Shown: piece after piece, positions 3,961 through 62,917 of the stretch
How the letters are laid out: each line of letters opens with the position of its first letter
Numbering within the stretch: position 1 is the first letter of the stretch
Origin: Porphyra umbilicalis
Taxonomy: Eukaryota > Rhodophyta > Bangiophyceae > Bangiales > Bangiaceae
DNA length: 64,000 nt
Assembly (NCBI GenBank): GCA_002049455.2
Contig: KV918785.1
Coordinates: 124,001-188,000 of the forward strand
Direction of reading: 5' to 3'
The notes under the pieces: generated by a model
Told to the model about the DNA's origin: nothing
Database searches by the model: none
The model's input: only the letters and a program-made list of their open reading frames with translations
Translations under genes and position numbers: made by a program

Positions 3961-4531
3961 ATTATTTCTATAGCGGAACATTCGGCATTGGGTGCGATGG
4001 TGTGCGTCTCTGGTGGGCCTGAACATGCGTCGCCGGCAGAGGTTTTAATGCGTGAGATCGACCTTTAGTTTGGAACAACACTGTGGGGAAATGAGGCAAG
4101 TATGTACACTGACGCTTCCTTCGAAATGGGTTGTACAAGTGCGATCCGAGCAAAATCTTGTTCCAAACCGCTTGTATTGTTTGGCGAGCCACAGGGCTAC
4201 GTGAGGGGGGTGCCAACAAGCTCTTACGGCCCAAAACGTAACGACTTGTTCCTTGCGTGCACCCACGCTTTGTTGGAGCACTGCCACGCCCAGTTAAGGC
4301 GCGTCTCCTGGCTTGAAAATCTGAAAATGATTTCTGCAATGCCCGATTATTTGGAAGCGCTTTCTGGTCAATCTGCGGCCCCTGGCCGCAAAGCGCAGGC
4401 GACGCACCGAGGCGCCTCCTTCTAAGCCGCCGGCCGCTGATCGCTACGAGCAACACCGACGTTGCCCGAGCTCGCCACACTCGACACCGCCCGGCACCTT
4501 CGTTGTTGTGTAACACCTTTTCCTCCCAGAT

Positions 4532-7500
4532 ATGGCCGCGGAGCAGCCCGGTTGCGACGGCACAGACGAACGGTACGTTCACGGGGGCGACGGGGGTGAC
4601 CACCATTGCTGTTAGAGCGAAAAAAGCAACAAAAAGCATCGCACTTCTGGGGGATCTGAGCATACCGCCATGGTGGGCATGGCGTATCTTTTGCGATATG
4701 GCTCATGTATTTTTCTTGCGGGCTTCCTTCCACTGAGGCACTGTGACTCTTTCTGACGGGAAAAGGGAGCGATAGAAGTGTCTTTCTCTCCTTGCTCGCC
4801 CCACGCAGCTCATTGGATGCATTGATTGGCATGGTAAAGGACATCGTCAACCCCTCCACAGGAAGGCCGTTGGTTTTCGTTTGCCTACCGTGCGCGCAGG
4901 CTTTCCTGTACCCCACGCAAGCCGTTAACAGCTACCAGGGAAGCTTATGTGCTCATCCGGAGGACATGCGACTACTTTCAGTAGCTGTGACGCTGCGCAG
5001 CAGTGCCAATGTTGCACATCGGTACACTCACTCGAGCGGCGTAGTCGTTGGGACGTGCACTGGGTGCCGGGCGCCCCTGGCGGGGCGGGGCCCTTCGGCG
5101 TTTGAGCCCTGCGTGTTGATACGCCACCAGAGTGGCCGCGCATCCCGCGCACGGTGCATCCCAGGCCCGGCCGCACTGCCGTTTTTGTGGGGCCCTGAGG
5201 AGGTGTCAGCGCAGCTGGCGACACCAAGGACCAAGAGGCGAAGAGTATGCGCCGGCTGCCGGTCGTCGGCCGAAAAGCAGTTCCGCATGCAACCCTTAGC
5301 GCCTTCCACAAGTTCTCCCAGCCGTGGGGGCAGCGCTGCTCCCGCGGGCACGGCACCAGACAGATCGGGACTGGAGATTTTGAGCTGTGCTGCTGCGGCC
5401 CAAGTACCCATGAGCGCCCCATCCCCCCCCTTCCCCCGCCCCACCCCTCGCTGCCCAACGCCGGAACTGGTGCCTCCTGGACCCAACCACGGGCCTGTGG
5501 TCAGAACCGTGTGCGCTCTTCCGGGCATTTCGGTGACCCGAAGGACACGCGACACGGACCAGGCGACACGTGTGAGGGCTGGTGGACTTGTGCCGTTGGG
5601 CTCATCCGCGCTCGATGCTGTGGCGGTACCATCGGCGGTCACCGACGCGGTTGGTGCGTCAGGCTCAGTGGTGGGCGGCCACGTCGCTGAGCTTCTACCG
5701 GGGTCCATCCACGAGCATGTCGCCGTTCCATCCCTCACGATTGGGGTGTCACCGGGCGTCTCTGGTTGGTCCACTGAGAAGATGATGGCAGAGCTGCTAG
5801 ACAGGTACGACAGCTTTGACTGTGCCTCCCTGTCGTGGTTTGAGGCGCTGCTGACGGCGCACCTACGAGCGACGCGCCCCATCGAAATCTCATTTGCATT
5901 CAAGAACGGGGTCAACCGACGCTACGTGCTCGCAACTGCAGTGGAAACAGGGCCTGTGCGCTCGCGGCAAATGCAACGCCGTTTAAGGACGGCAGCGACG
6001 GTCATCCAGGGTGTAACGACAGCTGACCTGTCGGCCCACCAAGCCCCCTTGCTGAAACTGCTGGAGGCGGCACGTCTCGGCAGAGGCGTGGCTGTCGTGC
6101 CGGTGAGGGGCTTTCTGCGGCTGTCTCCTCGAGAGCAGGCCCAGTTTACTGTCAGACACCACCTTAGCGCGGCAACTGTGTCTCAGCTCCGCCAGGCGGG
6201 TGGCGGCAACGCCAGTGGGTGGGCCTCGCGGGAGGTCTTACGCAGTGCCATGTCGGCGCTATCCTACGAGCCTGGGCGGCAGTTGTGGTCGGACGACCGG
6301 GGAGCGCACCTGGTGAGCCTACGTGTCGCCCTGGATAGCCTCTTCGAAGACCTGTCTTCCAGCGGTCAGTTCAGGGAGCGCCTCGTGCGGGGCCTTGATG
6401 GCCTACCCGTGCCCCGCACCAAGGCTTTTCGGCCGTGCCCTGAGCTGCCGTATGAGCAGCACTGCGACTCGACGGCTGACGTGCACGTGTGTGTCAGCCT
6501 GGACAAGGGGGGTCGCGGCACGGCCACATCCAAGCTTGTTCTGACAACTCCCAATCAAGTGCGCCCCATGGCCCGGGCGAACTCCATCGTCCTGTAAACG
6601 CTGCCTTGTGTCAATGACAGCAATGAGGAGCTCCACAAGATGATTGGTCCATGGGCAGGGGACCTGCAAGAACTTTTGGACCACGGTCTGTTGGTTGGTG
6701 GTACGTTGCGGGCGGTGCGTCTATTTTTGGGCGTGGACTTGGCCTTCTTTTCGGCGTTTTTGGGCCACAAGGGCGCATCCGCGCGCTACTCCTGCCCGTG
6801 GTGTCCAGTCGTGGCCCGCTCGGGCGAGGCTAACGAGGCATTGGCGCTGGAGTGCGGCTCCATACACGCCGTGGCTGTGGCGCCGACAGAACTACGGACG
6901 CGAAAACAGTTGAAGGATGCTATCCTGGCCTACGAGACGGGTCCCAATGTATCGCTTCCCATCCCACGGACGCCGGCGGAGCACCTGTCCATTGAGTCGT
7001 GCCCCCTTTTTGACATCTACCCGTGCCAGATCGTTACAGTACCACTTCATTTGACGTTGGGCGTTACACAAGTATTGCTGCGCCTGGGCATCGAGGCCAC
7101 GTACGCAGCTCTCGGGCGGGCATCGTCTGTGGTAGCTGCCACGGCTAATGGACGGGCCCTGCTTGACGAGGTGCGCGTCCGACCGGTCGCCTATCGCGGT
7201 GATGGCTTTGAAGGGCGTGATTCCCATCGCATTGCCGAGCGATCACATGTCGTGTGCGACGCTCTCGCACCGTACCTGCCAGCAAATCAACTGGAGGCCC
7301 TGCGCGGTGCGTGGGTGACGTGAGCGGCACTCGCCAAAACCCTCAACCGGGCCCAGGACGTATCCGTGGAGGAGGCGGCCGCCTTTGAAGTGGGTGCGTT
7401 GGGCCTGTGCCCCCCGCTGCAAGCTGCCTTTCCGTGGCGGAGCATGACACCAAAGCTGCACGCCCTGGTGCACCACGCGCCAGCGCTCCTCCGCCGCTTC

Positions 7501-8030
7501 TATTCCCTCGGCTCCTACAGGGAACAGGCCCTTGAGGCGTGGCACGGGTGGTTTGACCACACGCAAGACCAATGTACAGTCGACTCATTCATGGGGACGT
7601 GCCTACAATTGGTGCAGCGCGCGGCGCTGGAGCGCCAGCCCTCCGCTGACGTAGCGCTTGACAACGGACAGCATCGGCGGCCTGCTGCAGCCGGTGCGCC
7701 GAAGGCGACTAAGCCGGTCGACGGACGCCTCCGACAAAACAAAGCAGGACCCCGGAAACGACAGTCGGTCGGGAGAAGGAGATTGCAGAGATGGAGGCGT
7801 GGGCGCGGGGTCGGGCGGTCGCGGCAGGCGTGACGATTGATGCATGCAAGAAGAAGCAACAACCACAGGTGGCGCCGCCTCATACGGCTGCTGAGGGGGA
7901 GGTCATATTCGTGGATGGGGCGGACGGCAGCGGGCTCGCTGCGCAAATGAAAGAAACAAGTGGTGACGGGGAGGTCGAGTACCTCGAAGAAGAGGAATTG
8001 GACCCTGCTGTAGGTTTGATGCTAGGATAA
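4532..8030 (+). pseudogene. RAG1/Transib-like transposase, broken copy
   Basis: Relative of the intact gene at 10160-13138. A short exon 1 (ATG 4532, to 4572) ends at donor GTACGT. Acceptor CCCACGCAG (to 4808) joins it in frame to a long exon. N-terminal CxxC pairs (VCLPC, TCTGC) may bind zinc. The core keeps LDKGG (Asp codon 6501-6503), LFLGVDL (Asp 6736-6738), GASARYSCPWC, PLHLTLG, KLHALVHHAP and EQALEAWHG. The frame is broken by TAA (6595-6597) and TGA (7321-7323), with a probable frameshift near 7770 before a C-terminal tail ending at 8030. The TGA falls exactly where the intact copy has Trp (AWSLW). All catalytic-type acidic residues survive, so inactivation looks fairly recent. Its ends are not defined. 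Confidence 0.75.
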
Positions 8031-9351
8031 GCCACAGGAGAGAGGGGATTGAAAAAAAAAACAGACATGACAATCGGGCAAGAAACCGCAAGATAAATGG
8101 AGCACGCGTCGCCAGAGTGTGGGCGTTGCAGAGTGAAAAGTGACCACACACACAATAAGAGCCAACTGCGGGGACAGAGAAGCATGCAAGTAGAGAACAG
8201 GGGCGTGCCATGGCACGTGCTGCACACACCCCTGCCGTGTTACGCGTGGACATCCTCTGGCGCCCCCGTGACTCGACCCACTCGCCCCCTCTCCACAACA
8301 CGCTCCTCTCCCCCGCTCCGCACCAGGTGCATCCGGTAACGAGTCCGACGCCCCCTCCTCCCACTCCCGCTCCACCCTGCAGCGCCAACCACCGATGGCC
8401 GTCGGAATGCTACAGCCTCACAATCTCCTCCCTCGCCACCCTTGAGCGTTGTCTCTGTTGCACTTCAAACGTCGAGCATCATGCGTTGTTGAGTTGATTG
8501 CTGTTGCCTCGGTTGAACAGTCGTCCTTCATCATGTAAATGGTGGTGCCCCGAGAGAGGAAGACAATGCATTGAACAAGACACAATCCAAAAGAGATGAT
8601 ACAGGTGGCGACAGAGAACACCGAAAGAGTATTGCTGAGTGAAACGTCCCGCCCGGCCGCAGAAAGGATGATAGGTTCATCGACGACTAAGAGAACGTCT
8701 GGTCACAGAAATAATGATGAGCGAAGCGGTAACAGGCTGAAACAGCAGCCAAAAGCCTCACTAACACACGTTGTCTCTAGCTCGTAGAGAGCTTACCGTA
8801 CCTGACCAGGCCCCGCTGACCTGCAACAGACCGTGAAATGATCGGTGCTCACCACCAAAACGGGTAGGGAGCCGCCGCCCCAAGCCGGCGTGACGTCCCA
8901 GGAGGGGAGGAGGCCACAAGAAATAGTGAGCCAGAAGGAATGGTGCACGGTCGCGGTTGTTTCGCGCAGTCGAAGGGGGGCGGCGAGAGCAACGCAACAA
9001 TTCGGAGAACAAGCGGGAAGGTGCGGAGCAAGGAGGTGGTCGTCGATCCGGCCGTGGTGGGTGGGGGTGAGGACGTCGATCCGGCAGGGGTGGGGGGTGC
9101 GGACGTCGATCGTTCGTGTCCACGCAAGGTCGTCGAATAGAGACCTCGGAGGAAGTGATTTTCGCACTTCCGAACAGTGGATGACAAAAATAGGCCCACA
9201 AGAGGCTCTGAGGACAGGCGGAAATGAGCTGCAAGGGTCTCCAGCGAGTCGGGACAGCTTTGCCGATTCTCGGTTGTCATCCACTTGTTCAGCCAATAGA
9301 ATGGCTCCTTTTCTAGCCATGACCAATGGATAACTCAAACGTACTTGAAAA
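8031..9351. other. Non-coding flank of the transposase pseudogene
   Basis: I find no conserved protein or RNA gene. The first part has an A run (8051-8061) and CA-rich sequence, and GA-rich and TC-rich stretches follow. Short open frames on both strands have no family features. This should contain the 3' end of the transposon, but I could not identify a terminal inverted repeat by eye. Confidence 0.4.
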
Positions 9352-9810
9352 CCCAGAAGACTGTCGGGGCATATTACAGTAACTGGGCGTGCTGCGGGGG
9401 TCCGACGGCGGGGGCCAACCACCGCCCGCCTGGGGCCGACCCGCCACGTGTCGTCCGCCTTCGCGTCGGCCGTCGTACTCTACTGTATTGTACCTCAACA
9501 AGTCCACCGCCCGCACCAGTGCGGCGGCGCCACGTCCCGCCCCGCCGCCGCGCCGCCCAATCGCGGCAGCGGGGGCCACCCGCCGCCGTGCCCCGTGGCG
9601 TGCGCCCCACGCCACGTGCACGGACGCCACCCGGGCCGCGCCAGGCGCGCCCGCGCCCGCGCGTGCAGACGTTGGTCGTGTCGGCGCGCGCCCCACCGCC
9701 CCCCCCCCCACCGCCGCGCCGCGGCGGCACAACCCGCGGGTACCCCGTCCCTCCCCCCCCCCCCACCCCTCCCGGGCACGCCTAGTTTGTCGTGCTCTTC
9801 TGGGTCTGAG
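9352..9810. mobile_element. Short element with inverted ends around a GC-rich core
   Basis: The left end reads ACCCAGAAGACTGTC...CTGGGCGTG (9352-9392). The right end reads CACGCCTAGTTTG then CGTGCTCTTCTGGGT (9778-9809). The two ends are imperfect inverted repeats enclosing a very GC-rich, C-run-rich interior. A further copy of this end (ACCCAGAAGAGCACGAGCAC...CTAGGCGTG) lies at 15177-15216, again where sequence turns GC-rich. It is probably a non-autonomous TIR element. No coding sequence is seen. Confidence 0.45.
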
Positions 9811-9878
9811 CTTTACACGAGACGTTCGAAAATAGTTCCTTCAACGTGCTAAAATCTCAGTGGTCGAGAGAGCGTGAT

Positions 9879-9952
9879 CCCTCTCACAGAGGCCGTAGGG
9901 GCAGAATTGGCGACGCGTCGCCAATTATGCCTCTACGGCCTCTGTGAGAGGG
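9879..9952. repeat. 74-bp near-perfect palindrome
   Basis: CCCTCTCACAGAGGCCGTAG and the following bases up to GGCGAC are mirrored by GTCGCC...CTACGGCCTCTGTGAGAGGG, with about two mismatches per 36-bp arm around a GACGCGTC centre. It lies about 200 bp upstream of the ATG of the intact transposase. It could be a cruciform, part of a transposon end or a regulatory site; the sequence does not say which. Confidence 0.8.
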
Positions 9953-10159
9953 GTCGCCGGAACAGGGGACGCGACCCAAACCGGGCTTTCCGGCCGATTT
10001 GAGAGGGGTCTGCAACAGAGGATGAGCCGGGGACGGCGTGTGACTTGATCGGCCGGATCAAGTCTTGCCCGCGCGCTGCTGCGCGTTGCGCCTGCAGGTG
10101 ATTCAGAAGCCACTTAGTACTCCCTGTGCCGTTGCCGTCTTCCTGTGGTGGTTCCCAAA

Positions 10160-13138
10160 ATGGCGGACGACGATGAAGACCGGACGTAAGTTCTGTTGTT
10201 GTGTAACGTTTGCTCGTGTTGACAGGACAAGCACACCAGCGGAGGGTCAACGGGGCTGACGGGGTTCGATAAATTCGTCCTGGGCTGGACGGGCGCAAGA
10301 CGGACGCGTTGGGCACGCAAAAGGAACTTACGCTCACCTTTTCCTCCTGTCCACGGCTTCAATCTATTGCATGTCAGCGTGCCACCTGTCCTTTTCGCTG
10401 CATCTTGAAACTACACTGTGAACAGGGCAACCGCAGCAGACATTGGCGTTGCGTTCAAAGGCACAGTGTGGGCCTATCAATGCGTCGACTGCATGCGGCT
10501 CCTCCTCAAACCCACAAAAGGGATGCAAGCGTGGCGGGAGTGGGCTCAGTCTCTCCCTCCTGGCTCACCTCATGCCGTCGTTGCCAGCCTTCCAGTCATA
10601 TTGTGCAAACAAGGGGCCCAGGTGCTTGGCATGGACGCGTCTGGCACTCCCCGCGGCCGTTGCGGCAAGTGCTATGCCAGGCGCACACGAGCGGCACGTC
10701 GCGCGGCGCCCGCTACACCTGCTACTCCCACCCCCCACCCCCCCGCCTCTGCCGGCGTGCAGTCTCGCGTTTGGGGACCCTCTACGTGTCTGGCTTCGAG
10801 CACGATGGCTACGAGCGCGCCGGTGGTCAGCCTGATGCCTTCAGGGGGCTGCACAGATACTTCTGCATCCGTTGGGAACGCTCGGGTCACGGACGAGCCA
10901 GATGACGCGTGTCATCTACAGGCACGGCAAGAGCGAGGCCGTGCTGCGGCGCCCATGCCTGGCGAGGCCGCAGACGCGCAGCTGTGTCCCCCGGCCGACC
11001 CCCACGAAGGTGCGCCAGCTGCGACGGGTGGCGCGGAGCCTTTACCCGCTCCGACGCAGGCGGCCGAGCCTGCGGCAATTCCAAGCTGCAAGGATTTCCT
11101 TGACTGTCTTGTGGATGGTAATTACGGCGGGGAGGAGGACAAGTCGGTGCTGGAGGCAATTGCCAACGCAATTTTGCTGCGTGGCAAGCGCCCCCAGATC
11201 CGGCTCAAGCACAAGAATGGACGCGTGGTCGTGTACGCGCGGCAGATGTCGCCGCGGAAGGCTCTGGTCAAGAGCAGTCAAGCTAACAAGCGCCGCGCTG
11301 CCGCGCGTAAGCTGCAGGAAGACACGCGCGGCGGGATGGTGGGGACGAGGCGCGACAGCCCGCGACCCGCCCGTGAGCCCGTGCGGCTCACTGTGGCCGA
11401 GCAGGTGGGCCTGGCAGCGGCCCTGCGACTGAGTCATATCGGGTTCAACCGGTGGCGCTTGGCTCTGGGGGGGCGCCGCAGTGGCTTAGCCAGTTTGTCT
11501 GTGCTCCGGGCCGCGCGGCGGCAGCTCTCTGATTTACCGGGGAAGCAGGTCATCGTCACGGGCTCGGGCGCCCATCTGGCATCCCTCACTGCGGCCATCC
11601 AGGAGAGGGTCTCGGCTCTGTGTGACGCGGACGCCTTCGTCGAGAGACCTCTGGCTGACAGCCAACGGGAGCCCAGTGGCTCCGCCGGAGCCCCGGCGGT
11701 CGCGGTTCTTCCCGGGTCTCCCTCTCCGTCTGAACTCGACGTGCAGATCACCCTCGGCCTCGACAAAGGAGGCGACCCGGGGACGGTGAAAATTGTGGCA
11801 ACAATTATTAACCAAGCCCACCCCAACAGTCCATCCAACACGATACTGGTGGCCGTTTGCCCCTGCCAGGACGACAAGTACGAGGAGCTTGCGGCAATGC
11901 TCGAGACGCACCTCCCGCAGGTCGACGCTCTGCTTCGGGATGGGGTGTTGGTGCGCGGTGTGCACCGCCCAGTGCGGCTGCTGCTCGGCAGCGACTACGC
12001 AGCGCAGTGCAACGTCCTGGGCCACAAGGGTGCGTCTGCGACGCAGCCCTGTCTGGGATGCAAGAGCACGCGGTTTCCGAGTGTCGCGCAGGCCGTACTC
12101 GACGATGCCTATGGCACCCTCCAAGACGTTGACACCCGCAGGCACCTGCGAGAGGCAACGCACTTTGCCGATCGGATGGTTGCTGAAGGCGCTGCGGCGG
12201 TGGTGGGCGAGCCCGGCACAGCCGAGCACCACTGCTCGGTGGAGCGAAGCCCCCTACTTGCCATCAACCCGCGGCAAATTGTACCAATTCCACTGCATTG
12301 CACGCTAGGAATTAACCATCGGTATTTGCGGCTTGCTGTTGAGATGGTGATGGTCTTTCGGGGCTCAGCTGACGGCGCTGCTGCTGGGCGACAGGCGGGC
12401 GCCAGCTTTGCCCTCGAGCTTGTTGGCCTGCTGCACGAGAAGGTGCGCGTGCGGCCTACGCCGTACCATGGCGGGCTCTTCATTGGCCGCGACTGTCACA
12501 CTATTGGGGACAGCAGTGCGCTCGTGTGTAACGCGCTCAAGGGAAAGGTCTCACAGAGCCACCTTGATGCCTACGAACAGGCGTGGTCGCTGTGGAATCG
12601 GGTGCGCAAAACCCTTAACCGTGCGTCGATCATCCCCCGCGCTGAGGCCGCGCTCTTTAGGGCGGACACCGCTGCAATGGTGCGCTTGCTGAAGGGAAGC
12701 TTTCCTTGGGTCTCCATCTCACCGAAGTTGCACATCCTGATGTGCCATGCTCCGGCTTTTCTGGAGTCCTTTGGCAGTATCGGGCTGTATGGGGAGCAGG
12801 GCTTAGAGGCGTGGCACGGCCGCTACGGCCAGAGTGCTGTCAAGTACCCCGGTGCCACGGAGCTGGAGCGTGCGGCGGCATTTATGAGGGCTATGGCACT
12901 CGCACGAGAGGCAGGGGCTGATGTGCTTGCGCGCTACGCGCCGCGACGAAAGCCTGCTGTACCGGGGGCCCGCATGGCACGTAAGGTCGGTGACAAGCGG
13001 CGGCGGGAGAACAAGCCGCAGCTCCCAATTTGTGGGGCAGAGAGCCGAAAAGCCGCGAAGAAGCGCAAGATGTGGGCGGCGGGGATTACCAAGGAGGCGG
13101 CTACAACAGTTGGCGCGCACATGCAGCGCGCCATCTGA
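10160..13138 (+). CDS. RAG1/Transib-like DDE transposase, intact (912 aa)
   Basis: Exon 1 (10160-10185, MADDDEDR plus two bases) starts at AAAATGG and ends at donor GTAAGT. A 240-bp intron ends at GTGAACAG (10425), and exon 2 (10426-13138) continues in frame. The N-terminus has CxxC pairs (YQCVDC, RCGKC), then a disordered region, then a basic/helical region (about 230-430). The core landmarks are D455 (LDKGGD), D532 (LLLGSDY), C551/C554 (CLGC), H633 (LHCTLG), H778 and H783 (LHILMCHAP), GSIG and E803 (GEQGLEAWHG). Order and spacing match the RAG1 core as I know it: D600, D708, the CxxC 19 residues after D708, the LHC motif, the H-x4-H zinc pair, GSIG, and E962. The tail is Lys/Arg-rich, as for a nuclear DNA-binding protein. 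Expected role is DNA cleavage and transposition. Membership of the wider superfamily is strongly suggested; the exact family is not established. Confidence 0.8.
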
Positions 13139-13196
13139 CGGTTTGGGCAGATAAAACACCACCGGTAGGCCACAAGTAGATTTGAATACGTCTGCT

Positions 13197-14884
13197 GCTC
13201 TGAGAGTCGCTCACAAAGAGAAGTGGCAGTGACATGAAAACGACGGACTATCTTTTTTCTGCGACATTTTCATGTTCATTTGTGCGCACGGCAGCGTTCC
13301 TCTCGCCGAGACCTATCGAATGAGCTATAGAACACCGCCATAGCATAAGCACAGCCAGAGATAGTCGCATTTCCCACTCCGTGACCACTTGCACCCGGTT
13401 GCATTTTGAGTGTCGTGCGGCATGGGCCACGCGGGCCACAGTTGCAGAAGTTCCCCCTATATGTACATGGGTGCTGAGGGGACACTGAGTCATAATCTGC
13501 CGTCAGGAAGTGGTTTTGAGCACGTCCGCGGCTCTGAGAGTCGCTCACAAAGAGAAGTGGCAGTGACATGAAAACGACGGACTATCTTTTTTCTGCGACA
13601 TTTTCATGTTCATTTGTGCGCACGGCAGCGTTCCTCTCGCCGAGACCTATCGAATGAGCTATAGAACACCGCCATAGCATAAGCACAGCCAGAGATAGTC
13701 GCATTTCCCACTCCGTGACCACTTGCACCCGGTTGCATTTTGAGTGTCGTGCGGCATGGGCCACGCGGGCCACAGTTGCAGAAGTTCCCCCTATATGTAC
13801 ATGGGTGCTGAGGGGACACTGAGTCATAATCTGCCGTCAGGAAGTGGTTTTGAGCACGTCCGCGGCTCTGAGAGTCGCTCACAAAGAGAAGTGGCAGTGA
13901 CATGAAAACGACGGACTATCTTTTTTCTGCGACATTTTCATGTTCATTTGTGCGCACGGCAGCGTTCCTCTCGCCGAGACCTATCGAATGAGCTATAGAA
14001 CACCGCCATAGCATAAGCACAGCCAGAGATAGTCGCATTTCCCACTCCGTGACCACTTGCACCCGGTTGCATTTTGAGTGTCGTGCGGCATGGGCCACGC
14101 GGGCCACAGTTGCAGAAGTTCCCCCTATATGTACATGGGTGCTGAGGGGACACTGAGTCATAATCTGCCGTCAGGAAGTGGTTTTGAGCACGTCCGCGGC
14201 TCTGAGAGTCGCTCACAAAGAGAAGTGGCAGTGACATGAAAACGACGGACTATCTTTTTTCTGCGACATTTTCATGTTCATTTGTGCGCACGGCAGCGTT
14301 CCTCTCGCCGAGACCTATCGAATGAGCTATAGAACACCGCCATAGCATAAGCACAGCCAGAGATAGTCGCATTTCCCACTCCGTGACCACTTGCACCCGG
14401 TTGCATTTTGAGTGTCGTGCGGCATGGGCCACGCGGGCCACAGTTGCAGAAGTTCCCCCTATATGTACATGGGTGCTGAGGGGACACTGAGTCATAATCT
14501 GCCGTCAGGAAGTGGTTTTGAGCACGTCCGCGGCTCTGAGAGTCGCTCACAAAGAGAAGTGGCAGTGACATGAAAACGACGGACTATCTTTTTTCTGCGA
14601 CATTTTCATGTTCATTTGTGCGCACGGCAGCGTTCCTCTCGCCGAGACCTATCGAATGAGCTATAGAACACCGCCATAGCATAAGCACAGCCAGAGATAG
14701 TCGCATTTCCCACTCCGTGACCACTTGCACCCGGTTGCATTTTGAGTGTCGTGCGGCATGGGCCACGCGGGCCACAGTTGCAGAAGTTCCCCCTATATGT
14801 ACATGGGTGCTGAGGGGACACTGAGTCATAATCTGCCGTCAGAAAGTGGTTTTGAGCACGTCCGCGGCTCTGAGAGTCGCTCAC
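13197..14884. repeat. Five tandem 334-bp repeats
   Basis: The word GCTCTGAGAGTCGCTCAC recurs at 13197, 13531, 13865, 14199, 14533 and 14867, an exact 334-bp period. Five full units are followed by an 18-bp partial unit before divergence at CACCGG. The units look essentially identical by eye; the last unit has one visible change (CAGAAAGTGG for CAGGAAGTGG). Each unit holds a small inverted repeat (CATGAAAA...TTTTCATG). Repeated 81- and 97-residue open frames on the minus strand are by-products of the tandem repetition and show no protein family. The array begins 58 bp after the transposase stop codon. Confidence 0.95.
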
Positions 14885-15634
14885 ACCGGACAGTGGCGAT
14901 GGTATTGGTACTGTCGTACGATCCGTTGCGCAGTGTTGCGGGACGTCCGGAAGAGGCTCGGCCTCGCTTCCTTTTCGTCGGATCAACCCGAAACAATCGT
15001 TGCCCGACTGGTCCCAATGCGTCAGTGAGAGCGGGTCGGCTTGGCCACGTTGTATTCCGCCATGGAAATCTGGCGCTTGATTCGAAGGACGGCCCGATCA
15101 GCTGACAAAATATCAGGTGACCAATGAGCTATCGTATTTGGGACGAGGAGCCAACCAGGCGCATCAGTGCCCTTGAAAACCCAGAAGAGCACGAGCACTC
15201 AGTGCTAACTAGGCGTGTCCCCCCCCGCCACCGTCCCCCCCGTCCGTGTGGCGTGCCGCCCGCGGGCTGCCCCCCCCCCGCCCCGCCGCCGCCCGTCCCG
15301 CCGCCGCCCCGTGACGCGCCGTTGCCGCGCCGCCGGGGGCGGTCGGGCGGCCGGCCGGGCGGCCGGCGCGGGGCCGTGGCCGCCGCTCCGCCGCCGCCAG
15401 TGTCCCCGTGCGGCAGCTTCCCCACCGGCCGGTGCGCTTGCCGGTCGCCCCCGACTCTTTCCTGTTTTTTTTTTTTTTCACGCGCCGTGCCGCCGACGTC
15501 GCGGCGTGCCGGCGCCGGCGGCGGTGGGCGGGTGTCACTGCGACCAGTCGGACCGCCGCCGCGGTCACCGCCGCCGCGCCGGCGGCACCGTCCCCCCCAC
15601 CCCCCGTCGACGCGTCTGCCGACGCCGGGCGACT

Positions 15635-59679: not shown

Positions 59680-62600
59680 CTAAGCAAACGAGCCACCATC
59701 ATAGTTCTCATCCAACGACAGGCTATCCAGGTCCCCCTCCACCTGGCACCGCCCAGCAAGAGGCATCTCTGCCGTCAGCTGGCGCACCTCCTCCTCGGTC
59801 ATGGCAGGTACGTTGACGAGCGCCGTTTGCAACAGGCCCACATTGCTGCGGATGAGGCAGTGCATCTCCATGTGTTAAGTGAGCATCATTGATTGGTTGT
59901 CCATGATGATGTTGCCGGCAGTGGAGCAGTCCCTCTCCGACTCGGCGGTCGTTCGGACCGCGCCCAAACCCGAGAACTTCACAAGCGAGAAGTTGGGGAA
60001 ATTGCCCTTGTTCTCCATCCAAAACGCCAGGGCGGCGCACTTAGGGCTGATATCCGTCAGCAGCAGGAAGGCGTCGAGCTCGACCTTCGCCATCGCTGCC
60101 CTCGACGGCTGCCCGCCGTCGTCCGCTTGGCTCTGCGTCGGATCCTCCTCATCGCCCATGTCCATGAGGCATGATCGCGCACGTCGCTTCGCCACCGCAG
60201 CGGTCGACTCATGTGTGGGCGTCGCGGTCGCGGTGGTCGATGAGGTTGTCGGTGTCAGCCGCTCGCACGCGTTATTCAGCAGGGCGACGCCCCACGACGT
60301 GGCGTCTTCGGCCCCCGTGATCTGCGCGAGCCACTGCAACGCACGCTTAATGCCGGGCTAAACCATTGAATACGTGATGACGGGCCTGCTCTTCAGCAGG
60401 TTGCGGCGGTCGTCATTGAGATTGGAAAGACAAAACGGCAGCTGCTCGAGAAGCAAAACAATGGCCGTTGCGGCGTCGCTGCACAACGGCTGGCAGTCAC
60501 AATCGTCGTCGATGCTCCTGTCCTTGGCCTTGTGAAGTTAGTTGTCAACGACCGGCAGGGTATCGTTTGCGTGCGTGTCGATGTGCGGGTCGGCCGCGGC
60601 GTCACCAACAGCCAAAGCCGTTTCGGGCAAAAGGGGCACACGAAGCACTTCAGCATGCACGGCCTTCTAAAGCGATCACAAGAACGGGAGTGAGTCACGC
60701 ACAGGCCAAGTGGCGCTCTGCACGGCCGTAGTCACCTGGTAAGAAGGCCGCAACCAACCCAGCGGCTGTCGCATGCGATCCCACTCCGACTGCGTCAGCT
60801 CCCTCTTCTTCGCGCCCCCTCCCACATCGGCACGCTAAAAAACTCAATCAGTCGGAGGTAGCACGTATAGAGCCGCGCCATGGCAGTGTAGGTCGAACTC
60901 CAGCGTGTGGGCACATCTGTAAGCAGCATGCGGCACGTGTTGAAACGCAGTGGGGATAGGGGATGGGGGACCACGGTGATGTGGTTGAGTGGCTTGAGCT
61001 TGTGTGTATGTGTGCGAACGTGCTTTGTTGGTTGTCTCTCCAAAGCGCCGCTCTTCCCATCAAGGGCACTCCTCAAGTAGTCCAAGTCGGACCACTCAAG
61101 CCCACCACGCCGCTCAAGCAGCTCGCCCGCGCACGCGCCCGCCCACACTCTAAATCAAAGCGCTCACCACATCAAAAGCATCAAGGATCAAAGCAAAGCG
61201 CACGCAAATCAAAGCATCAGAAGCGCAAGAACAGAAAATATGAAATCGCAAAAGTTTTACTCAAAATCGCACGGGTACAAATGTCGAATGCACCAGCGGT
61301 CACCAAACCGCGAGGAAGTCGCATGGGTAGGCTAGTGGGAAGTAGGGCTCCCATTCTCATAAGGCGTGACCTTTGGGTCGCGTCTGGGAGTCGGGGGTTT
61401 GATTCTTGTCAATACCTGGTTTCTTGAATTTTGCTTTTCACAGCAGCAGGGCTTACAGCGGTGTTGAGCATGACGTTCCAACAGCACGGTCCGGGTTGCA
61501 ACCTGCCAGGGTGCGGAACGTTGAATTCCGAGTACAGAGCCACACTTCGCTCCGAGTGGTTCGAGTGGCCACCAGGCTTTCGAAGCTTGAACGCCAGCAT
61601 ATTGGCCTGAGAATTCTTGCTACGGCCTTCGAGCGTCGTCACCATGTTGTCCGAGTCTTTCTGCTCGCCGCTCTTCTTGGGGATGGTGGGGGCCCCGAGA
61701 GCGTGCTGCACGGAGTTGTGCGAGAATTTTGCGATGCAGGCCAGCCACGGCGGCGGTAGGCGCAGCATGCCAGCCCGCACATTGGCCCCTGAGTCCGTCG
61801 TTGTTAAAGCAATATCCTGCTGGCACAGGCCAAACAAAATCATCCAGCCAAGGAACCATAGCTGGTTGGTGGGAAAGTCGTGGCGGCCGACGAAAAGCGA
61901 GACGCCCAAGCGGACCAATTCCATCTCCACGGCTCCTTGGTCCGCATAGCGGAGGACAATCGATCAAAACGACGGGTTGCAGTGGTCTTCCGTCCACAGG
62001 TCAGTCATCGCATGGACGAACGGGAGCCCGCCGTACAGGCACTTGAAGCGGGACAGCTTGTCACGCAGCGCGCACAACATGTAGTTGTACCACTCAGCAA
62101 GGTGGTGGACGACAGTGTTGATGGAGGGCGGGGTGTAGGAGACAGACCGGCTGAGGAACGACGGCATGTACTCATTGGTGGCCAGAGAGTGGGGGGAGAG
62201 GGTCATCGTCTGGACCAGCAGTTACTCCAAATGGAAGGATTGCCGGTCTGTTTTAGGCCGTAGGAAGCTGTCGATGCCGCTGCGCTCGGAATTGCGGTAA
62301 GCGCGACTGCCCCAAGTGGTGTTCATCGACCCGTGGAGGGCCTCCCGGGAGAGGGTAAGCTGCATCTTGGTGCGTGTGTCGCGAGCGGCCATCTGACGGA
62401 GGTGCTTCGTGGCATTGGTGATGTAGACACCAGAGAGCAGTAGCAACGTGTGGCTTCCCAGACGGTGGCACAAAAGGCAGAGAACCAGCAGGTCCTTCCA
62501 CCTCCCCGCCGCGTTCTCCAGATGGTAGCGTTGGAAAACCGGCCACGCCGTTGACCTTTTTTGGGCCGCGTCGGTAGCCTGGTCCAAGATGATGTACGAC

Positions 62601-62917
62601 GCGCCCTCGTTCTCAACCGTCCTGGGAATCTTCTTGGATACCCCGGAAAGCTGTAGGATGGCCTCCGAGGTGTCGGCAGGCGACTCGTTGACCGCGCTCA
62701 TGCCACCCACCCGTCTCTTCTGCGGCAGCACGGATGGGCCACTCATGGGTGCAAGGGGAACAGATGCCGATTCAGCGTCCTGAGAGGCAACCACAGAGCC
62801 ATCCATCAGCGTCCGTCGCAAACCGTCCGTGCACAGGGGAGCGCAGGCAAAAGCGAGGTGACCGAGAGTGGGGGAGGTGATTGCACGCTCTGAGCGTTCA
62901 CGGGCGTGGGCGTGCAT
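59680..62917 (-). pseudogene. Decayed hAT transposase
   Basis: Minus-strand fragments in hAT order. A BED-like zinc finger comes first (STAWPVFQRYHLENAAGRWK, CLLCHR, YITNATKHLRQM), then MTDLWTEDHCN (hAT T-x-D-x-W-T), IALTTTDSGANVRAGM (the DN-x-x-N motif), LLTDVPTRWSSTYTAMARLY (D-x-x-TRW-x-S), and the C-terminal dimerisation domain (LDAFLLLTDISPKCAALAFW, FPNFSLVKFSGLGAVRTTAE with SERDCSTAGNI). Several in-frame stops are seen (for example TAA at 59875-59877 before HMEMHCLIRSNVGLL, and one in the 60.5 kb fragment), and the frame changes between fragments. It cannot encode a full enzyme. An insertion of about 250 bp with a tRNA-like part separates the 61409-61930 and 60795-61148 fragments. Confidence 0.75.
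61325..61415 (+). other. tRNA-like sequence (possible SINE head)
   Basis: GGCTAGTGGGAAGTAGGGCT resembles an A box and GGGGGTTTGATTCTTGTC a B box about 65 nt later. CTCATAA between them looks like a Met-type anticodon loop (CAU). The acceptor and anticodon stems do not pair well, so this is not a normal tRNA gene; a decayed tRNA or tRNA-derived SINE head is more likely. It sits in DNA that interrupts the hAT pseudogene. Confidence 0.3.

Follow-up and report, generated by a model that had tools for sequence, protein, structure and literature searches.

An intact transposon copy with two kinds of ends

The element described here is a transposon in a 64,000-nucleotide stretch of Porphyra umbilicalis contig KV918785.1 (the whole stretch is called the window), which is very likely a Chapaev-type cut-and-paste element whose transposase has a predicted RAG1-core fold and whose ends hold a second sequence block at an offset of either 18 or 28 nt, a short end being paired with a long one. 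The complete copy in the window occupies positions 9777..15217 on the plus strand (5441 bp), limits that were set by homology against other copies: seven near-identical copies, the window's included, all begin at CACGCCTAGT, and six of them also stop at a common point, ACTAGGCGTG, the fetched stretch having run out before the other end of L011. Its gene consists of a 26-nt first exon (10160..10185, +), an intron inferred from the sequence (GTAAGT...CAG, of the GT..AG type; 10186..10425, +) and a second exon encoding the transposase (10426..13138, +), contained in an open reading frame (ORF) at 10418-13138 (+) that is open throughout, without a stop. Exon 1, intron and exon 2 together bear out an earlier reading made from the sequence only, which had started an intact protein of 912 amino acids at position 10160. 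A similar 26-nt exon followed by GTAAG is present in several other families (L016, L022, L027 and L028, among seven loci inspected); at L023, another of the seven, none was found. Between the gene and the far end of the window copy (13139-15123), no ORF of 200 amino acids or more was found and the next ORFs to begin run beyond the element, which leaves it without a RAG2-like partner gene of that size; elements of the family fam3 measure 3492-3493 bp.

Each end carries the same two blocks, one terminal and one further in. In the terminal inverted repeat (TIR) at the 5' side, near the gene start (CACGCCTAGTTTGTCGTGCTCTTCTGGGT, 9777..9805, +), the second block lies at offset 18, and in the 3' TIR at the opposite end (CACGCCTAGTTAGCACTGAGTGCTCGTGCTCTTCTGGGT, 15179..15217, −) at offset 28; we refer to these as the short and the long end. 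When the searched genome (83.8 Mb in 665 contigs) was scanned with an end pattern in which the spacer could be anywhere from 2 to 30 long, it gave 200 matches (the reversed control gave 0), and all of the 100 that were listed measure 29 or 39 bp (one nested duplicate was dropped). Patterns for distant clades recovered a further 15, 9 and 3 ends, with offsets of 18 and 28 only, save for a decayed copy in the window (30). The 126 listed ends comprise 63 with offset 18, 62 with offset 28 and one with offset 30, i.e., two fixed spacer lengths, one per end, as in a 12/23-type arrangement. Inward-facing pairs are mixed in all 41 cases listed: 30/30 among neighbours within 20 kb, and 7/7 and 4/4 by reading the lists of the distant clades. 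As 17 of the 30 neighbouring pairs span 1.1-1.8 kb and could not hold the 2.7-kb gene, these elements are most likely non-autonomous. Elements of 1149 bp with two-spacer ends occur on contigs C5, C9, C27 and C81.

Target duplications and palindromes at short ends

The window copy is flanked by the 4-bp target duplication TCCC at 9770..9773 and 15218..15221, the left one being set off from the short end by GGG (9774..9776), an exact palindromic, P-nucleotide-like addition; the notion that this copy has no target duplication was therefore dropped. Identical 4-bp flanks were found in 49 of the 54 elements with both ends located, and the adjacent duplication is missing in the other five; at other lengths (k), flanks were identical in 8 (k=2), 4 (k=3), 1 (k=5) and 0 (k=6) of the 54. 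This set was built from the 45 elements covered by a palindrome fit, 41 of them with adjacent duplications, and nine more that were added for the duplication count (one of these, C114b, entered the arm count only, with no palindrome fit). The set excludes C34, C98 and C227, for which at least one end could not be located; C21, whose candidate ends have no block 2; L020 and L022, in which the 3' end was not located; L007, truncated at a contig end; 26 single ends that served for the palindrome count only; and many genome matches that were never fetched. At C89:133166-146122, one element has inserted into another's end and is flanked by a TAGT duplication, so that the joint is seen directly. C114b and L051/52 have no adjacent 4-bp duplication; by eye, C114b fits GCAG plus an extra T on each side.

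In the window copy (L010; TCCC+GGG) and in L015 (TGAG+CTCAACC), an exact palindromic extension lies between duplication and short end. In V(D)J recombination, open-and-shut joints arise when a flank hairpin is opened off centre and rejoined, and by analogy the extensions are suggestive of the same course of events here, beginning with a cut that left the flank as a hairpin. It is possible, if somewhat doubtful, that they are instead pre-existing target palindromes, products of chance or assembly artefacts, with no flank hairpin. Chance palindromes do arise in G/C-rich flanks (arms of at least 7 at 5 of 1474 control positions, arms of 3 at 23 of 1474), and one of the three long palindromes, that of L113, is a G/C run for which no partner end was located. 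However, the palindrome centre of L010 and of L015 coincides exactly with the end of the matching 4-bp duplication, as an addition to an existing insertion requires, and the same holds for L021 (ATGT+ACATGCA, likewise an exact palindromic extension next to the short end) once an extra nucleotide is allowed on the other side.

Several observations weigh against a hairpin step. The excess of palindromes at short ends is modest: among 134 ends, arms of at least 7 were counted at 3 of the 69 short ends and at none of the 65 long ones, which differs from the control positions (p 0.004 for short ends, 0.035 without L113) but gives p 0.13 for short versus long ends. The L021 duplication fits only with its extra G on the other side, and the long end of C99 has a 3-nt palindrome despite a normal duplication. 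Since arms of 3 are not rare among the controls, the GGG of the window copy alone proves nothing.

Spacing of the end blocks and a proposed mechanism

A register shift of 10 between the two ends fits best in ten of twelve subfamilies (p<=0.0075 by shuffling). The enzyme would recognise bipartite ends, in which a terminal block such as CACGCCTAGTTA is followed by a second one that starts 18 or 28 nt in, and one short and one long end would be paired in a single synaptic complex, an 18/28 rule analogous to the 12/23 rule. As the two offsets lie one helical turn apart, both blocks could share a face of the DNA, as in 12/23 signals. The transposase, pictured from its model as an RNase H core with D455, D532 and E803 (spliced numbering), a zinc-binding C2/H2 insertion and flanking helical domains, probably nicks at CAC, leaves a hairpin on the flank and joins the element to its target with a 4-bp stagger. 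In the red-algal genome the element has multiplied and diversified, with many subfamilies and short derivatives. From the strictness of the genomic pairing pattern we infer that the enzyme enforces mixed pairs; that it reads the spacing, like the hairpin step and their structural basis, is put forward on the same conditional footing. The ends themselves, their spacings and mixed pairing, the duplications, the conserved catalytic residues and the predicted fold are what the data show.

The 18/28 arrangement could also be an inherited accident, in which the two ends bind differently, the spacing is not read, and the short derivatives are internal deletions. One ancestral pair may be the source of all ends, and many of the listed pairs resemble copies of one derivative, e.g., the four of 1149 bp. 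We consider this unlikely, as the offsets stay at 18 and 28 though block-2 and spacer sequences vary among subfamilies, and although the proteins of the two window elements are only 31-36% identical in their matched pieces. Moreover, neutral spacers would be expected to vary in length, as the spacer of one decayed copy does (18/30).

A rule that is actively read by the enzyme has to be set against the following points. Subfamily L029/30 gave no significant register shift, and the second element of the window, albeit a decayed copy, shifts by 12 instead of 10, which is not significant either. Plain inheritance may be enough to give a short derivative one end of each kind. The spacing data are all drawn from a single genome, in which the copies within a family are not independent, and the patterns detect solely ends with both blocks intact, with 100 of the 200 matches listed.

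Conserved residues and predicted fold of the transposase

Residues are numbered here in the exon-2 frame (905 amino acids), which equals the spliced numbering of the earlier reading minus 7. The frame holds D448, D525, C544/C547 (19 residues past D525), L625-H626, H771/H776, GSIG at 785-788, and E792/E796, and its zinc and LH motifs (CLGC, LH, HILMCH) are conserved. Across 45 aligned sequences, one of them the window's, D448, D525, C544 and C547 are each conserved in 43 and H626 in 42; among the 36 rows with letters at the respective positions, H771 is conserved in 32, H776 in 34, E792 in 35 and E796 in 33. All motifs named in the sequence-only reading (D455, D532, CxxC, LH, H-x4-H, GSIG and E803) are thus present, and their conservation across the alignment marks them, at the level of sequence, as conserved anatomy rather than chance. 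E792 (spliced 799) and E796 (spliced 803) are two candidates for the catalytic glutamate, of which we presume E796 to be the one, by motif rather than by superposition. Likeness to RAG1, for which the earlier reading quotes residue numbers, was assessed by fold and not by residue superposition. An N-terminal CxxC...CxxC, seen by eye in the alignment, might correspond to the Chapa zinc finger.

A good structure model was obtained from a deeper alignment of residues 220-872. Among the solved-structure matches listed, its best folds were RAG1 and HzTransib, and the transposase is accordingly predicted to have the RAG1-core fold, an outcome the earlier reading had anticipated; the predicted fold would suit Transib as well as RAG1 and RAG-like transposons. 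On the other side of the balance, the initial model, made for the full-length protein, was of low quality (pLDDT 44.7); a structure search with it again placed RAG1 first, at a TM of only 0.14, and was not used. Searches of PDB sequences by phmmer and hmmsearch gave no match to the transposase.

Placement among Chapaev, Transib and RAG1

By its insertion marks, the element reads as Chapaev-type and not Transib: it combines 4-bp duplications and CAC/GTG ends with C(2)C, LH and H(4)H motifs and a match to the DUF1280 profile (PF06918). In the available text of the sources, 3-4 bp target duplications, CAC/GTG ends and these three motifs are given as Chapaev hallmarks (PMC4079192), and DUF1280 is equated with Chapaev transposases and placed with RAG1 in a single clade (PMC3985635). 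The DUF1280 match of the window transposase (E 4.2e-6; 27 bits at a cut-off of 25) covers only about 65 residues, but the domain is found in 35 of the 45 alignment members (E<=0.1) and at 25 places in the genome. The profile match to RAG1 that the earlier reading led one to expect did not appear, as PF12940 matched 1 of the 45 members, at E 0.064. The zinc motifs were rejected as proof of RAG1/Transib identity because EnSpm/CACTA, Mirage, Chapaev, Transib and RAG1, the CMCT group, all have C(2)C and H(3-4)H (PMC12730594).

A true Transib or RAG1-like element with 5-bp duplications, as the earlier reading proposed, is highly improbable: the top solved-structure matches of the model are indeed RAG1 and HzTransib, and the fold cannot choose between Transib and Chapaev because no Chapaev structure was among the matches listed, but the duplications (49 of 54 at 4 bp against one match at the 5 bp of Transib), the ratio of DUF1280 to RAG1 profile matches and every Chapaev mark tested speak against it. 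From the earlier claim of a RAG1/Transib-like transposase, the predicted RAG1-core fold therefore stands and the Transib branch does not. In a broad sense the claim survives, because Chapaev, with its N-terminal Chapa zinc finger, is counted as a clade of a wider Transib superfamily in the available part of PMC4411706.

Comparison with known systems and implications

The element shares its duplication length, 5'-CAC...GTG-3' ends, motifs and DUF1280 match with Chapaev (of the CMC/CMCT group), whose examples in the accessible portions of PMC3985635, PMC4079192 and PMC4411706 are animal and come with no mention of two-spacer ends, whereas the present host is a red alga. With RAG1 and ProtoRAG (BbRAGL) it has in common the predicted fold, bipartite ends that start with CAC, and mixed pairs. 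Like recombination signal sequences (RSSs), its ends come with two spacer lengths that differ by roughly one helical turn; the offsets differ (19/30 in RSSs, i.e., 7+12 and 7+23, versus 18/28), and no likeness to the nonamer was seen by eye. ProtoRAG differs in its spacers (27/31) and its 5-bp duplications (PMC8289069, text available in part), and the window copy has no RAG2-sized ORF. Transib (HzTransib) also shares the predicted fold and is a single-gene element with asymmetric spacers in some families, but its target duplications are 5 bp long. In the sources, as far as their available text goes, the TIRs of most Transib families are symmetric (PMC8289069), and outside V(D)J recombination the 12/23 asymmetry is known only in a few of them, its recognition in vertebrates being tied to RAG2 (PMC8355894).

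The novelty lies in the spacing grammar. The two-spacer ends, the most surprising feature, had escaped the sequence-only reading. In the open-access literature (Repbase Reports and subscription journals lay outside the search), no report was found of two-spacer Chapaev ends, nor of red-algal Chapaev members. The chances appear evenly balanced that the element represents a working 12/23-like rule with flank-hairpin chemistry in a RAG1-fold transposase beyond RAG and Transib, without RAG2 and in a red alga. If so, mixed-spacer pairing would either be ancestral to RAG1, Transib and Chapaev, long before adaptive immunity, or have arisen twice, favoured by the fold. How the 12/23 rule arose is still an open question, and a large red-algal family with a strict two-spacer grammar, a predicted RAG1-core fold, many natural end variants and, in the window copy, no RAG2-sized ORF would make it testable outside animals. 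The placement would also extend DUF1280/Chapaev-type transposases to red algae.

Genome context, the second window element and internal repeats

The red-algal host named in the earlier reading is confirmed by phycobilisome linkers, nuclear as well as plastid: the family has twelve matches, of which four fall on C665, a contig with the look of the plastid, and the remaining eight are spread over seven others. The window transposase has at least 59 matching stretches in the genome (E<=0.001), and the second window element at least 97, partly at the same places; as 50 of 6087 first-look candidates were scored in the transposase search, these counts are lower bounds, and by sequence the transposase families are large and diverse. 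In viral contigs, 96 stretches fit the pattern for relatives and none was confirmed, and the end pattern gave 0 matches there and 0 in GTDB contigs. The window ORFs at 747-2387, 3968-4663 and 62222-62917 had no Pfam match (E<=0.01).

The second element (4285..9391, +) lies 385 bp upstream of the complete copy and belongs to a distant clade. It is decayed, with 18/30 spacing and a frame broken by TAA (6595-6597) and TGA (7321-7323), and is flanked by CTGC (4281-4284 and 9392-9395). Its first piece had no Pfam match (E<=0.01); a relative on C66, 90% identical over that piece, has 18/28 spacing and a CGCT duplication.

Within the complete copy, a near-perfect 80-bp palindrome (9876..9955), about 100 bp inward from the short end, recurs in 6/6 fam1 copies scanned and in 0/11 elements of other families. 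Downstream of the gene lie 334-bp tandem repeats (13174..14885), whose copy number differs among element copies. In L016 (about 6007-7533), tandem repeats with a 333-bp period and variable copy number also lie 3' of the gene, and the units of the two families have no convincing sequence similarity despite their near-equal period. This period is twice 167 bp, which might reflect a chromatin or size constraint.
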